From contig CACJMR010000003.1 of NCBI GenBank assembly GCA_902594605.1, forward strand, positions 1 through 64,000: a stretch of 64,000 bases of DNA. Direction: 5' to 3'. Every line of letters begins with the position of its first letter. The stretch's first letter is position 1. This document shows, one piece after another, positions 13,910-24,016 of the stretch. The notes beneath the pieces were generated by a model. It saw nothing but the letters and a program-made list of their open reading frames with translations. It was not told where the DNA came from and ran no database searches. Origin of the DNA: an uncultured Pelagibacteraceae bacterium. GTDB taxonomy: Bacteria; Pseudomonadota; Alphaproteobacteria; Pelagibacterales; Pelagibacteraceae. The position numbers and the translations under genes were made by a program.

Positions 13910-13983
13910 TGGTGCTCCCACCCTGTACTGACCAGGGAACTAGTCATTACCAATGACTTGTTATACCATTTAACTACAGGAGC
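13910..13983 (-). tRNA. tRNA-Thr (anticodon GGU)
   Basis: On the minus strand a 74-nt cloverleaf folds with acceptor GCTCCTG/TGGGAGC, D-stem GTTA/TAAC with loop AATGGTA, anticodon stem AGTCA/TGACT with loop TTGGTAA (anticodon GGT, read as GGU), T-stem CCCTG/CAGGG, discriminator A and encoded CCA. The T-loop is GTCAGTA rather than TTCRANN: T55, C56 and R57 are present, but T54 and A58 are both G. The acceptor start and A73 fit a bacterial tRNA-Thr. Confidence 0.88.
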
Positions 13984-18155: not shown

Positions 18156-18232
18156 GGCCGAATAGCTCAGCCCGGTAGAGCAGCGCCCTGAAAAGGCGTG
18201 TGTCACAGGTTCAAATCCCGTTTCGGCCACCA
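18156..18232 (+). tRNA. tRNA-Phe (anticodon GAA)
   Basis: A 77-nt cloverleaf with acceptor GGCCGAA/TTCGGCC, D-arm GCTC-AGCCCGGTA-GAGC, anticodon stem GCGCC/GGCGT with loop CTGAAAA (GAA, Phe), variable GTGTC, T-arm with canonical loop TTCAAAT (one A:C mismatch in the stem), A73 and encoded CCA. It lies 5 bp after the end of infA on the same strand, so it is probably released from the infA transcript. Confidence 0.95.
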
Positions 18233-18312
18233 CCAAAAAGTTTCATCTTGAAATAATCTTAAAAGAAATTACCTTCAGGAGATAATAAATAACAAAAGGA
18301 CTAAGAAATAAG

Positions 18313-18531
18313 ATGAGTGAAATATTGAAAGGTACTACTAAATGGTACAATGGCCGTAAAGGTTTTGGATTTGTTGAAAGGGAAGATGGACAAAAGGATG
18401 TGTTTATTCATGCATCGGCGATAAAAGCAGCTGGGTTAAGATTCCTTAATGAGGGAGATAAAATTGAATTTCAATTAAGTGAAGACTCTGGAAAAGGGCC
18501 TGCAGCAATCAATATTAAAAAGATAAGCTAA
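18313..18531 (+). CDS. Cold-shock-domain protein
   Basis: A 72-aa single cold-shock domain (OB fold) that binds single-stranded RNA/DNA, probably as an RNA chaperone. It has the RNP1 motif KGFGFV (about 16-21) and RNP2 VFIHASA (about 30-36), with TKWYNGRKG in place of the usual VKWFNxxKG. A GGACTAAG segment 7-10 bases upstream of the ATG can serve as ribosome-binding site. A terminator follows about 20 bp after the stop. Confidence 0.92.
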   Translation: MSEILKGTTKWYNGRKGFGFVEREDGQKDVFIHASAIKAAGLRFLNEGDKIEFQLSEDSGKGPAAINIKKIS

Positions 18532-18762: not shown

Positions 18763-18836
18763 GCCTTGGTGGTGAAATAGTATCACGTCGGTTTGTGGAT
18801 CCGAAGTCATAGGAGCGTAACCTATCCAAGGTACCA
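18763..18836 (+). tRNA. tRNA-His (anticodon GUG), alphaproteobacterial type
   Basis: A 74-nt cloverleaf: acceptor GCCTTGG/CCAAGGT (G1:U72), D-stem GTGA/TCAC with loop AATAGTA, anticodon stem TCGGT/TCCGA (last pair T:T) with loop TTGTGGA (GTG, His), T-stem ATAGG/CCTAT, A73 and encoded CCA. G1:U72 with A73, and no encoded G-1:C73, is the idiosyncratic tRNA-His of many alphaproteobacteria. The T-loop AGCGTAA is non-canonical and position 18 in the D-loop is A instead of G. The gene ends 4 bp before hisS, whose product charges it. Confidence 0.9.
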
Positions 18837-18840
18837 AAAA

Positions 18841-20235
18841 ATGAAACAAGAAAAAAAATTAGTTCCTGGATTACCTTCAGGATTTGAAGATCGTTGGGAT
18901 AAAAAACTTCTTCTCAAAAAAAAGCTTTTAAAAGCTATTGAGAATAATTTTATTAAATTTGGAGCTGAAGCTTTAGAAACCCCTTCGTTTGAGATAAGTG
19001 AAAATATAGGATCTTTTTTGGCAGAAGATGACTCTAATCCTATGTCTGATGTATTCTCATTTCAGGACGGAGAAAAAAGTATTACCCTTAGGTATGATCT
19101 TTCAAGTCCACTAGCTAGATTTGTTGCGCAAAATAATCAAGAGCTTCCATCAATCTTTAAAAGGTATGCTATTCAAAATGTCTTTAGAAATGAAAAGGCT
19201 GGTAATGGAAGGTACAGAGAATTTATGCAAGCAGATTTTGATATCGTTGGAAATGTTAATCCTGCCCAAGCAAATGCTGAGCTTTGTAATTTAATATCAA
19301 CTACTTTGTTAGATTGTGGTCTAAAAAAAGATCAATTTACAATTAACATCAGTAACAGAAAAATAGTTCAAGGATTAATTGATGATTTAAAAATATCAGA
19401 AGAAAAGCAAATTAAAGTAATTAGAGCAATTGATAAATTAGACAAACCAGGTTTTGGTTTAAAAGGTGTTGAAGATCTGCTTAAAAAAGAAAGAAAAGAT
19501 ATAAGCGGTGCAATCACTAAAGGTGCAGATTTAAACGATAAACAAGCTTCTGAAATACTAAATTTTTTAAAAATTAAAGATTTAAAAGAATTAAAAGAAA
19601 CATTAAAAAATCCATTATCTCAAGAGGGCATTAGTGAATTAGAGGAATTATATAAAATACTTAGTTATGGAAAAAACAAAGACCAAGTTAAGAGCAATTT
19701 CTGTATAGTGAGAGGTCTCTCGTACTATGATTCTTTTATTGTTGAAACAAATCTAAATTTTAAAGTTACAAATAATAAAGGTAAAGAAGTTTCAGTAGGC
19801 AGTTGCTGCTCAGGGGGGTCATACGCCAAGTTAATTTCGAGATTTAAAGGAGTGGATATTCCTGGTACAGGAATTAGTTTTGGAGTGGATCGATTGTTGT
19901 TTGCTTTGATGCAATTAGATCAAATAAAAGTAGATAGTCAAAAACCAGTTTTAGTTTGTGTAATGGATGAAAAATATCTTAAAAATTATTATGAAATTTT
20001 AGATCTATTAAGAGATAATAATATCAATGCTGAAATTTTTTTAGATACAAAAAAAAATTTAAGTAAGCAGCTTGATCTTGCCAATAAGCGTGATTTAAAT
20101 GTTGCGATTATTTGTGGAGAAAATGAGTTTAAAGATAACACTATTACCATCAAAAATCTTAAGGGTGTAAAGGGTCAAAATAATCTAACAATTCCCAAAG
20201 AAAAGTTAATCGATGAAGTCAGAAAATTTATCTAA
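18841..20235 (+). CDS. hisS: Histidyl-tRNA synthetase
   Basis: Charges tRNA-His. The 464-aa class II synthetase shows motif 1 around TPSFEISENIG, LRYDLSSPLARF, motif 2 in RNEKAGNGRYREFMQADFDIVG, the HisA-type loop VRGLSYYDSF, motif 3 GTGISFGVDRL and a C-terminal anticodon-binding domain. The frame is open back into tRNA-His, but the ATG at 18841, 4 bp after the tRNA, is the natural start. The alphaproteobacterial form recognises a tRNA-His lacking G-1:C73, as seen just upstream. It overlaps hisZ by 23 bp. Confidence 0.95.
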   Translation: MKQEKKLVPGLPSGFEDRWDKKLLLKKKLLKAIENNFIKFGAEALETPSFEISENIGSFLAEDDSNPMSDVFSFQDGEKSITLRYDLSSPLARFVAQNNQELPSIFKRYAIQNVFRNEKAGNGRYREFMQADFDIVGNVNPAQANAELCNLISTTLLDCGLKKDQFTINISNRKIVQGLIDDLKISEEKQIKVIRAIDKLDKPGFGLKGVEDLLKKERKDISGAITKGADLNDKQASEILNFLKIKDLKELKETLKNPLSQEGISELEELYKILSYGKNKDQVKSNFCIVRGLSYYDSFIVETNLNFKVTNNKGKEVSVGSCCSGGSYAKLISRFKGVDIPGTGISFGVDRLLFALMQLDQIKVDSQKPVLVCVMDEKYLKNYYEILDLLRDNNINAEIFLDTKKNLSKQLDLANKRDLNVAIICGENEFKDNTITIKNLKGVKGQNNLTIPKEKLIDEVRKFI

Positions 20236-21259
20236 TATTCTTAAATCAAGTGGTTTTAAGAATATTGAACTTGATAATATTATAGAGTCTAAGCATATCC
20301 TCAAAAGATCCGGAGGAAATTTTAGGCAATATTTATTTTCTTTCTACGATCAAAGAAACGTAGAGTGGAGCTTACGTCCTGATTTAACTCTATCCAGTGT
20401 TATAAAGTTTATTGGAACAAAAGATCAAAAAAAAACTAAATGGTCTTATAGTGGTGAAGCTTACCGAAAACAGAATAAAAATAATAAATCACCAATTATT
20501 AAACAAACAGGTTTTGAAATTTTTGGGTCTAATACTAAAGCTAAAGACGACCTTGAGATTATTAAAACTTCAATCGATATATTTAAAAAATCAAATTTTA
20601 AGAAATGTGAACTTAATTTAAGTAATATTGAAATATTTCATTTACTTGTTAATAAATTAACTTCTTTACCAATTAGATGGAGAGAAAAAATCAAAAGACA
20701 CTACTCAAGAGAAGTATACTTTGATCAATTGTTAAAGAAATTGTCTGATAATAAAGACATTAATCCTAAAATTGTTGAGCAAGATAAAGCAAAGGCTGAA
20801 CGATTAAGAAAAAAAGATCCATCGAAGATGTATTCTGGGAGATCTTTACAAGAAATTTTAGAGAGATTTGATTTAAAAAATTACCGAGATCCAAGAAATC
20901 TTTCTAATAAAAACAGTGTTAAAATAATTAAAGATTATTTGAAAATTTCTTGTCCAATTGAAAAAGCACCTAAAGTTTTAAATGATTTCTTTAAAATTAA
21001 CAATTTGAATATTTTTATCAGTTCAGATTATTTTCCAATAAAAAAAAATAATATTAAAAATATAAAAGTAATTTTTAATACGAATATTAATCGAACGGTT
21101 AGTTATTATACGGGGATGACTTTTAACATAGAGATAAAGACAAATGGTAAAAAAGAAGTTTTTTTATCAGGAGGAAGATTTGATAATTTGATAAAAGATC
21201 TTGGTAACAAGAAAGACTTAAATGCAGTTGGGGCGGCAATTAATAGAAGTATTTTATGA
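20213..21259 (+). CDS. hisZ: ATP phosphoribosyltransferase regulatory subunit
   Basis: HisRS-like protein that forms a complex with short-form HisG to make the first enzyme of histidine synthesis. The 348-aa sequence has a class II synthetase-like fold (LRPDLTLSSVIKFI, YSGEAYRKQ, GGRFDNLI) but lacks an intact synthetase active site and anticodon domain. It overlaps hisS by 23 bp and hisG by 4 bp, and the following HisG is the short form that needs HisZ. Confidence 0.9.
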   Translation: MKSENLSNILKSSGFKNIELDNIIESKHILKRSGGNFRQYLFSFYDQRNVEWSLRPDLTLSSVIKFIGTKDQKKTKWSYSGEAYRKQNKNNKSPIIKQTGFEIFGSNTKAKDDLEIIKTSIDIFKKSNFKKCELNLSNIEIFHLLVNKLTSLPIRWREKIKRHYSREVYFDQLLKKLSDNKDINPKIVEQDKAKAERLRKKDPSKMYSGRSLQEILERFDLKNYRDPRNLSNKNSVKIIKDYLKISCPIEKAPKVLNDFFKINNLNIFISSDYFPIKKNNIKNIKVIFNTNINRTVSYYTGMTFNIEIKTNGKKEVFLSGGRFDNLIKDLGNKKDLNAVGAAINRSIL

Positions 21260-21939
21260 ACAAAGAGATAATTAATATTTTAACTTTATCTAAAGGCCGA
21301 ATGAAAGCTGAGGCTGAACAAGTTTTTAAAAAAAATAAATTGAAAATAATTCAAGAAAGCGAACGATCATTGATTGGTTCTGTTAAAGGTTATCCAAATA
21401 TTCGTGTACTTTATATGAATGCTACTGAAATTATCGAAGCGTTAGGTAAAGGAATTGGAGATATTGGTATAAGTGGAAAAGATTTATGGCGTGAAAGTGA
21501 ACAAAGCATTCAATCAAATATTGCACTTGCAAAAGAATATAATTGGGGAAAATCTGATTTAGTAGTTGCTGTCGATAATATGTGGCTTGACTGTGTAAAT
21601 CCTACAGATCTTGAAGATATCTCGTACGAGTTTTATCAAAAAAAGAAGAGACTTATGCGTTGTGCAACTAAATTTAAAAACCTTGCTCATGGATGGTTTA
21701 ATTCTAAAGGGATCACTCAATATGAATTAATTACTTCATTAGGAGCTACCGAAGGGGCAAATAAATTAGGAACGGCAGACTTAATCGTAGATTTGAGTTC
21801 AACAGGAGAAACTTTAAGACAAAACAATCTAAAAGTTATTGATACAATTTTGAGCTCTTCTGCTTGTTTATTTTATTCTAAGAAATCAATTAAGAAAAAA
21901 GGTGTAAAGAAAATACTGAAATTACTTTCTAAAAATTAA
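21256..21939 (+). CDS. hisG: ATP phosphoribosyltransferase, short form
   Basis: First step of histidine synthesis, condensing ATP and PRPP. The 227-aa protein lacks the C-terminal regulatory domain of long HisG (about 300 aa) and therefore depends on HisZ, encoded directly upstream. Visible segments are LSKGRMKAEAEQ, DIGISGKDLW, the ATKFKNLAHGWF region and the PRPP-type loop GATEGANKLGTADLIVDLSSTGETL. Its end overlaps a small minus-strand ORF; the accessory island begins about 140 bp downstream. Confidence 0.95.
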   Translation: MNKEIINILTLSKGRMKAEAEQVFKKNKLKIIQESERSLIGSVKGYPNIRVLYMNATEIIEALGKGIGDIGISGKDLWRESEQSIQSNIALAKEYNWGKSDLVVAVDNMWLDCVNPTDLEDISYEFYQKKKRLMRCATKFKNLAHGWFNSKGITQYELITSLGATEGANKLGTADLIVDLSSTGETLRQNNLKVIDTILSSSACLFYSKKSIKKKGVKKILKLLSKN

Positions 21940-22082: not shown

Positions 22083-22451
22083 TCAATATTTATTTCGCCA
22101 ATAGTACTCTTTACTTCTTATTGTATCGCATTCAGAACAATTACTTCTTTTTTTATTAGTCGAGCCATATTTATCATTTGGAAAAACATCCAATGATTTA
22201 AATTTTTTACAAATTGAGCATTGCAATTTACCATTTTTATATTTTTTTTGATTACCAATATTTTTGAATACCAAACCTTGTCTTTCAGTTTCTGACCTTG
22301 TTAATATTTTGGTTTTGTTATTTTTTCCTTCTCCTCTAAAATCTTTTTTAGTCCAGGTTGGATGTTGGTTAATTATTTTTTGAATTTCCTCGTCACTTCT
22401 AGTAATCCATTGATTAGAGCCCTTTGGATTTCTATTAAAATTTTTAACCAT
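22083..22451 (-). CDS. Zinc-ribbon protein next to the methyltransferase
   Basis: A 122-aa basic protein with a four-cysteine zinc-binding segment: Cys78-x2-Cys81 and Cys105-x2-Cys108, in the style seen before the catalytic part of many HNH endonucleases (C-x2-C, K-x-L-x-x-F, G, C-x2-C, then a YY-containing helix). No HNH catalytic residues follow; the protein ends 14 residues later. It lies 5 bp downstream of the methyltransferase gene in the same operon. It could be a DNA-binding accessory factor or the remnant of a nuclease. Confidence 0.65.
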   Translation of the reverse strand: MVKNFNRNPKGSNQWITRSDEEIQKIINQHPTWTKKDFRGEGKNNKTKILTRSETERQGLVFKNIGNQKKYKNGKLQCSICKKFKSLDVFPNDKYGSTNKKRSNCSECDTIRSKEYYWRNKY

Positions 22452-22456
22452 AAATT

Positions 22457-23665
22457 TTAATCATTAAAATTAAATTTCATTTGTGGTCCTAATTCTTCTT
22501 TTCCTGTGAAGTATAAATCTTTACCTTTTGCTTTTATCATCCAGTCATGATGATGTGAGATTTGTTTTTTATTTTTTTTTAGGGCCATTTTGACTGCTTT
22601 CATTATTTTTTCAGCTCCTAATACAGGTACAGCCATTCCAATTTGTCTTCTAATAGATTCTTTTCCCCCTACAAAATTGTAGGTGAATGGAAATGTTTGT
22701 AAAGTTGCTCGTTCTCTATTTGTCAAAGCTCTATTTTCTTTATAATGGTATACATGTGTCCCACCACCTCCACTTCCAGTTATAGTGTAGGCAGGTTTTG
22801 AGCTGTCTAACCTTTTATAGATATGGCTCATTCTTGCCTTTTTAACTCCAGGAAGACCGTCTTCATCATCACCTAAATCCCATACATTTTTACCTTCAGC
22901 TGTTTTTTTTAGTCTTCTTATAACTCTCTCATCATGTTTAGTTTTTTCCGTATGTTCCACTCCATCAGGAATTTCTTCTAAAGCTTCTTTACATGTTTTG
23001 AAAGGACCTTTGTTTTTTTCAGGTTTTTCGAAGTTGATTTTATTTTTTCTAAAAAAGTCTTCTCTAAAACCAACAAGTATTATCCTATGTCTTGATTGTG
23101 GAACACCATATTCCTCAAATTTATAGTTATCTGCATATATTCTATATCCATGTTTAGAGCAATTAGCTAAATCACCCATTATTTTTTTAAAATTTTGATA
23201 ATTTTGGTTTTGGAGTTTTTCTTTATCAAAAACATCTTTGACTAATACTTGCTCTGATGAATTAAATTTAAGTTTTTTACTTAGAGAGGTAACATTTTCA
23301 GCAACAAAAAATTCCGGCTCAAAAAAGTTTAGAACTTTGCAAGCATACTTGTAAAGTCCTCCAAATTTACCTTCCATTTTTTCTTTTTTGCCAACTAAAC
23401 TAAAATCATTGCAGGGAAATCCAAATAGAAGACCATCAATTTTTCCAAAATCTTTTTTTATTTTTTTTAAATTCGATAGTCTTGAAAAATCTTCTATATT
23501 TTTATTAAAAGCTTCACACTTTTGATTTTTTTCAAAGGTTTTGCAGGAGTCTTCATGGTTATCTACGCCCCAAATATGCTCAAATCCAGCATTTTTTGCT
23601 CCTTCAGCAAAACCTCCGGCACCACAAAATAACTCTGCTAATTTTTTTTTATTCTCTCTTGACAT
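22457..23665 (-). CDS. C5-cytosine DNA methyltransferase
   Basis: Methylates cytosine at C5 in a specific DNA sequence. From the ATG at 23665 the protein is 402 aa with the motifs in order: I (LAELFCGAGGFAEG), IV (GFPCNDFS with the catalytic Cys), VI (VAENVTSL), VIII (YGVPQSRHRIILVGF), a variable target-recognition region, IX (LTNRERATLQTFP) and X (QIGMAVP). The frame extends to a TTG at 23704, but those codons are the promoter palindrome, so the internal ATG is chosen. Gene order with a Vsr endonuclease, GHKL ATPase and unknown proteins marks a restriction-like defence island. The target sequence is unknown. Confidence 0.93.
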   Translation of the reverse strand: MSRENKKKLAELFCGAGGFAEGAKNAGFEHIWGVDNHEDSCKTFEKNQKCEAFNKNIEDFSRLSNLKKIKKDFGKIDGLLFGFPCNDFSLVGKKEKMEGKFGGLYKYACKVLNFFEPEFFVAENVTSLSKKLKFNSSEQVLVKDVFDKEKLQNQNYQNFKKIMGDLANCSKHGYRIYADNYKFEEYGVPQSRHRIILVGFREDFFRKNKINFEKPEKNKGPFKTCKEALEEIPDGVEHTEKTKHDERVIRRLKKTAEGKNVWDLGDDEDGLPGVKKARMSHIYKRLDSSKPAYTITGSGGGGTHVYHYKENRALTNRERATLQTFPFTYNFVGGKESIRRQIGMAVPVLGAEKIMKAVKMALKKNKKQISHHHDWMIKAKGKDLYFTGKEELGPQMKFNFND

Positions 23666-23704
23666 ACTCACAGAAGATATATATATTACCTGTGAGTATG
23701 TCAA
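23659..23704. promoter_or_regulatory. Mirror-symmetric divergent promoter with 15-bp inverted repeat
   Basis: TTGACATACTCACAG (23659-23673) is repeated in perfect inverted form at 23690-23704, with 16 AT-rich bases between. Each arm starts with a consensus -35 TTGACA. Reading rightward, TTGACA (23659-23664), 17 nt, then TATATT (23682-23687); reading leftward, TTGACA (23704-23699), 17 nt, then TATATC (23681-23676). The two -10 boxes abut at the centre of symmetry. The leftward start would fall about 4-5 nt before the methyltransferase ATG, giving a nearly leaderless mRNA; the rightward start lies about 35 nt before the 95-aa gene. The arms are natural operators for a dimer. Confidence 0.8.
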
Positions 23705-23728
23705 ATGGATATTTTATAGGGAAAAATT

Positions 23729-24016
23729 ATGGTTAAACCCAAAAAAACAAGAACTAGTCATTTAAGTGCTGCAGAAAAATTTGAGTATTATTTTAATCTC
23801 AGAATGAGATTGCTTAAAAGCGCCTTAAGAGGAGTAGGAAATTTATCAAATAGAAATGTTTATGAGATTCCTGATGGAGCAAAAAAGATAATCGAAAGTC
23901 AATTGAAGGAATGGAGCAAAGAGTATGTTTTTGATAAATGGAATAAAAGTTCAAAAAAAATAGAAACTTTAAGAAAACCAGAAAGTCTTTACGACCAGTA
24001 TTTTAAGAAAAAATGA
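23729..24016 (+). CDS. 95-aa protein of unknown function, divergent from the methyltransferase
   Basis: A basic, probably helical 95-aa protein with an AGGG ribosome-binding site 8-11 bases before the ATG. I recognise no family and no clear helix-turn-helix. It shares the symmetric promoter with the methyltransferase, the usual place for a controller (C) protein or antitoxin-like regulator, but that role is only an inference from position. Downstream lies a 234-bp stretch with strong hairpin potential. Confidence 0.65.
   Translation: MVKPKKTRTSHLSAAEKFEYYFNLRMRLLKSALRGVGNLSNRNVYEIPDGAKKIIESQLKEWSKEYVFDKWNKSSKKIETLRKPESLYDQYFKKK

Follow-up and report, generated by a model that had tools for sequence, protein, structure and literature searches.

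Alternative elbow bases in a tRNA-His gene of SAR11 bacteria

Two tRNA contacts, G18-Psi55 and T54-A58, are commonly regarded as near-universal. Neither is encoded by a tRNA-His gene located in a 64,000-nucleotide stretch of DNA (hereafter, the window) from an uncultured Pelagibacteraceae bacterium of the SAR11 group, which raises the question of whether this gene is a decaying copy or a working tRNA whose elbow is assembled from other bases. The evidence collected here, i.e. the gene itself, its uniqueness in one complete genome, the conservation of its stems and the covariation of its bases, was established directly and strongly favors the second answer: the tRNA-His is very probably functional and essential, with its hidden elbow contacts replaced by an alternative set.

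The tRNA-His gene and its surroundings

Read directly, the gene consists of GCCTTGG-TG-GTGA-AATAGTA-TCAC-G-TCGGT-TTGTGGA-TCCGA-AGTC-ATAGG-AGCGTAA-CCTAT-CCAAGGT-A-CCA, and it matches the Rfam tRNA model (RF00005) from end to end with 50.2 bits, compared to a gathering cut-off of 29, which places it among the cloverleaf tRNAs. All of its helices are paired with the exception of a U31·U39 mismatch. The initial annotation had described the loops AGCGTAA and AATAGTA with A54, G55, U58 and A18, a perfect T-stem, and the retention of G19 and C56, all of which agree with our reading. The gene therefore lacks the canonical G18-U/Psi55 and U54-A58 combinations (A18, G55, A54, U58), and it keeps G19-C56 together with a purine at position 57 (G57). 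Two extra departures are present without visible compensation, namely the U31/U39 mismatch and A15/C48, the latter at a position where canonical SAR11 tRNA-His has A15-U48. As the D-loop is only 7 nt long, its register is slightly ambiguous in the window copy alone. However, the tRNA-His of relative L334 (genus g9) carries a full 9-nt D-loop, AGTTAGTTA, together with the T-loop TGCAACT, which removes most of the doubt that position 18 is an A rather than a missing G. In L331, the corresponding loops are AGTTGGTTA and TTCGAAT, a form of tRNA-His that is present in genera g5, g7 and g12. RNAfold predicted no cloverleaf for the unmodified sequence, a result that says little for any tRNA.

Since hisZ-like and hisG genes directly follow hisS, the tRNA-His can be considered to head a histidine gene cluster (Table 1). 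Its expression and its charging with histidine by HisRS are presumed; what the sequence shows is the linkage of the gene to hisS. Beside the his genes, the region 22083-24016 contains a C5 cytosine DNA methyltransferase gene plus two small ORFs without a Pfam match, which possibly represent a restriction-modification remnant.

Table 1. Features of the window that bear on the tRNA-His gene
Feature	Position	Strand	Evidence
tRNA-Thr(GGU), G18/U55 with T-loop GTCAGTA (G54, G58), a further elbow variant	13910..13983	-	ARAGORN, relatives
tRNA-Phe(GAA), canonical G18/U55; A18/G55 at the same site in most relatives	18156..18232	+	ARAGORN, relatives
Cold-shock-domain gene, between tRNA-Phe and tRNA-His	18310..18528		
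tRNA-His(GUG), encoded CCA, no G-1, G1/U72, A73	18763..18836	+	direct reading, Rfam
D-loop AATAGTA: A14 A15 U16 A18 G19 U20 A21, A18 instead of G18	18776..18782	+	sequence; register via L334
T-arm with a perfect stem of 5 bp, ATAGG/CCTAT; in sister sequences, pair 49-65 is a compensatory G-C	18809..18825	+	alignment
T-loop AGCGTAA: A54 G55 C56 G57 U58 A59 A60	18814..18820	+	sequence
hisS (histidyl-tRNA synthetase), start 4 nt past the tRNA-His CCA	18841..20235	+	TIGR00442, 333.7 bits, over cut-off
hisZ-like and hisG genes, directly 3' of hisS	20213..21939		
C5 cytosine DNA methyltransferase gene	22457..23704	-	

Covariation of 18/55 and 54/58

It is evident that the unusual loops are not a product of chance, as they reappear in other species as well as in other isoacceptors. 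Among 150 loci with tRNA-His, representing 26 distinct genes, 16 of the genes encode G18/U55, 10 encode A18/G55, and none encodes a mixture. The same holds true for a combined set of 67 distinct Pelagibacteraceae tRNAs (His, Phe, Val-GAC and Thr-GGU), which includes 34 with G18/U55, 33 with A18/G55 and none with a mixed state. On a tree of these short sequences, which is poorly resolved, each of the two positions changed about 12 times, and all 7 independent pairs were concordant (p=0.016). For positions 54 and 58, the 67 tRNAs encode U/A (48), A/U (16) or G/G (3), again with none mixed, and 5 of 5 independent pairs were concordant (p=0.06). On these data, bases 18 and 55 are mutually dependent in the SAR11 variants, as are bases 54 and 58. 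G19-C56 and a purine at 57 are almost always kept.

The 18/55 rule extends well beyond histidine. In tRNA-Phe, the D-loops AGTAGTA or AGGAGTA accompany TGCGA T-loops, and AGTTGGTA and similar D-loops accompany TTCRA, while tRNA-Val(GAC) and one tRNA-Thr(GGU) (L290) likewise obey the rule. Since related tRNAs repeat the same swaps, the swapped elbow is best regarded as a working alternative and not a broken gene. The elbow changes had initially been described as linked. This is true within each pair, but the two swaps, 18/55 and 54/58, can occur one without the other: TGCRA loops combine A18/G55 with U54/A58, whereas the GUCAGUA loop of the window's own tRNA-Thr combines G18/U55 with G54/G58. 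The commonest alternative 54/58 pair is A54-U58, which occurs in tRNA-His and tRNA-Val; G54-G58 is found in tRNA-Thr(GGU) and in the tRNA-His of L286.

Several additional variants were encountered along the way. The tRNA-Thr(GGU) with the T-loop GTCAGTA recurs in several genomes (the window, L292, L298), and others have the canonical TTCGATT. A tRNA-Thr(GGU) of L303 (7476-7550), having the T-loop TTAGATT with A56 and the D-loop TAGTGTTA, may have replaced G19-C56 with U19-A56; its position 18 is ambiguous, and the final tally does not include it. A class-wide scan with a strict 7-nt D-loop pattern yielded nothing outside the genus, although with so strict a pattern this silence does not show absence. 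Among viral contigs (L346-L353), tRNAs for Asp, Ile and Asn encode A18/G55, having been picked by pattern and thus not constituting evidence of covariation, and the tRNA-Ala of L347 and tRNA-Asn of L351 encode A54/U58 with G18/U55. Consequently, the alternative elbow pairs also occur outside of SAR11.

Competing explanations and the role of modification enzymes

Could the gene nonetheless be decaying, with a canonical functional copy residing elsewhere? Its covariance-model score is low (50 bits versus about 55-74 for most tRNAs), and ARAGORN gives no call for the AGCGTAA tRNA-His, either in the window, where it calls only the tRNA-Thr and tRNA-Phe, or for the counterpart in a complete relative, G298 (one contig of 1,199,990 bp, 99%). 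The window's own genome (762 kb, 43 contigs, 56% complete) yielded one tRNA-His, the copy described here, and because this genome is incomplete, uniqueness was examined in the whole of G298. There, the 31 tRNAs called by ARAGORN cover every amino acid save histidine, and the sole tRNA-His, detected by Rfam and a pattern search, is of the AGCGTAA type, with no second canonical tRNA-His(GUG) of the kind that the initial annotation had named as a sign of decay. In addition, among seven distinct sequences of the AGCGTAA/GGCAGAA type, pairing is complete (100%) in the acceptor and T stems, four stem pairs have changed on both sides (1 of 500 shuffles scored as high), and the loops are nearly invariant, with identical loops conserved across many species. 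Neither the broken stems nor the redundancy of a pseudogene is therefore seen, and with a sole copy and compensatory stem changes the decay reading can be discarded as extremely improbable, in agreement with the earlier proposal of a re-engineered elbow. The same copy number bears upon a further scenario, in which the tRNA-His is specialised for a role outside of ribosomal translation. Specialised tRNAs of this kind, such as the cell-wall tRNA-Gly of staphylococci, do lose the usual elbow bases, as has happened here. However, as the only tRNA-His of G298, the AGCGTAA type must serve translation, and the same kind of elbow is found in tRNA-Phe, which is also the only one in G298. The probability of such a specialisation is close to negligible.

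The functional reading leaves the matter of how the swap arose, for which the T-loop modification enzymes are of obvious relevance. A TruB profile matched all 14 control genomes as well as genera g5, g7, g9 and g12, but none of 51 genomes from the window's own genus (50 of which are at least 94% complete), nor several sister genera. In G298, the infB-rbfA-rpsO-pnp region is intact and truB is cleanly missing between rbfA and rpsO (about 113817-113830; G298 tiles L210-L269). TrmFO was found in none of 29 genomes searched, truB-positive genera included, and its weak matches fall in open frames of MnmG size (500-640 aa). Motif searches of G298 detected no open frame with a TrmA-type DPPR motif and no TruA, and they revealed only a single RluA-like motif for a pseudouridine synthase. 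The genus thus appears to be without both T-loop uridine modifications. It had been proposed that the altered loop abolishes the TruB and T54 methylation sites; U55 and U54 are indeed replaced by G55 and A54, but since TruB was found in none of the 51 own-genus genomes and TrmFO in none of the 29 searched, the loss of these sites is probably moot.

Given these absences, it is conceivable that the loss of TruB drove the switch, whereby the constraint upon U55 was relaxed without Psi55 and the elbow drifted to A18-G55. The clean gap in G298 and the lack of TruB throughout the genus and in several sister genera would fit such a sequence of events, as would the tRNA-Phe genes, in which G55 is limited to genera that gave no TruB match and U55 is kept in all listed TruB-positive genomes. 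Yet A18/G55 is likewise found in TruB-positive genera, namely in the tRNA-His of g9 (L334, L335) and the tRNA-Val of g12, which excludes TruB loss as the sole cause. Furthermore, the TruB-negative G298 retains U55 in most of its tRNAs, and the genera are not independent of one another. We consider TruB loss as the driver possible, if rather unlikely. Another potential source of the odd tRNA-His is the wholesale import of the gene from a phage or some distant donor, followed by its maintenance through horizontal exchange. Evidence of exchange is plentiful: the HisS tree is discordant with tRNA-His type and requires 15 changes of type; L022 and L024 encode HisS proteins that are 96.8% identical next to tRNA-His genes of only 67% identity, with and without the swapped elbow; and in L091 and L297, flanks of 91-96% identity surround tRNA-His genes that are 64% identical. 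Phage contigs carry A18/G55 tRNAs as well. Conversely, none of 53 viral-contig pattern matches to the AGCGTAA tRNA-His is tRNA-like, and a viral origin of this type was rejected on that basis. Intermediates exist inside the family, and the identity set of alphaproteobacteria is retained by the alleles. SAR11 strains are likely to exchange the gene among themselves, presumably through recombination at the tRNA-His locus, whereas a distant origin is unsupported and importation as a whole seems quite improbable. Block transfer of tRNA-Phe together with tRNA-His was rejected, as their elbow states occur in all four combinations. A more speculative extension, to which we assign a low probability, would be that tRNA-His (and tRNA-Phe) constitutes an old multi-allelic locus, in which canonical and swapped-elbow versions, very different yet fully functional, pass from strain to strain as replacements of nearly the whole gene beside almost the same HisRS. 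Active maintenance of this diversity would also be part of such a scenario, and could for instance reflect an escape of the altered elbows from tRNA-cutting enzymes that phages or rivals deploy.

A proposed elbow and its precedents

In the canonical elbow, base 18 is inserted between bases 57 and 58, where it contacts Psi55; the T-loop is closed by U54-A58, and the exposed face is formed by G19-C56 (PMC4810234, PMC7912444). In the proposed alternative elbow, A18 would enter the same gap of the T-loop and pair with G55, thereby substituting for G18-Psi55, with A54-U58 taking over as the closing pair of the T-loop. The exposed G19-C56, which is contacted by the ribosome, RNase P and other partners, is unchanged. 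The swaps came about as paired substitutions, probably stepwise, with 18/55 changing first (A18 plus a TGCRA loop), followed by 54/58 (AGCGU loop), although both the base-pair geometry and the order of steps are extrapolated from the sequences. The synthetase-facing parts have been kept throughout. GUG, U72 and A73 are invariant across the 26 distinct tRNA-His sequences, and the window gene has all three, with a T at position -1 in place of an encoded G-1. Measurements in Caulobacter crescentus identified U72, A73 and GUG as histidine identity elements (PMC9976931), and SAR11 has been reported to share A73 and the lack of G-1 (PMC3937112). The window gene resembles the alphaproteobacterial tRNA-His of these papers in each of these features. 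Both papers deal with the acceptor end of the tRNA and with HisRS, and their passages on these describe no elbow change.

As nearly identical HisS proteins adjoin both types, either tRNA-His is evidently used with nearly the same HisRS in closely related strains, which amounts to a natural double-mutant experiment on elbow requirements. Its outcome suggests that the outer G19-C56 is retained and that the inner pairs can be swapped. In these very abundant free-living bacteria, essential single-copy tRNAs carry covarying elbow substitutes, in a genus that apparently lacks the Psi55 synthase TruB, and annotation with ARAGORN overlooks both the window gene and its G298 counterpart.

A close precedent reportedly exists among the "specific purine trap" suppressor tRNAs selected in vivo in E. 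coli (Doyon, Zagryadskaya, Chen and Steinberg, J Mol Biol, 2004), in which purine 18 is said to depend upon base 55, the combinations being G18/U55 and A18/G55. The natural SAR11 tRNAs exhibit the same 18/55 rule, with A18 and G55 found together in all 33 distinct tRNAs that carry either. The selected clones reportedly kept U54-A58, as do the TGCRA relatives, whereas the window tRNA-His has A54-U58; the SAR11 variants are also natural, essential and recurrent. Similarly, Zagryadskaya, Doyon and Steinberg (NAR, 2003) are said to have found U54-A58 replaceable by G54-A58 or G54-G58. G54-G58 is present here also, but A54-U58 is not known to be among their selected combinations. A literature search returned no report of swapped elbows in SAR11, and natural A18-G55 may be described in the Steinberg papers; natural elbows that combine A18-G55 with A54-U58 appear to be new. 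Other departures from the G18/Psi55 contact or TPsiC are found in several of the tRNA-Pyl, mitochondrial type II, tRNA-Sec and allo-tRNA molecules (PMC7609411). However, tRNA-Pyl and the mitochondrial type II tRNAs lose or rebuild the D/T contact, whereas the SAR11 tRNAs retain a standard cloverleaf and G19-C56 and have swapped the inner pairs alone.
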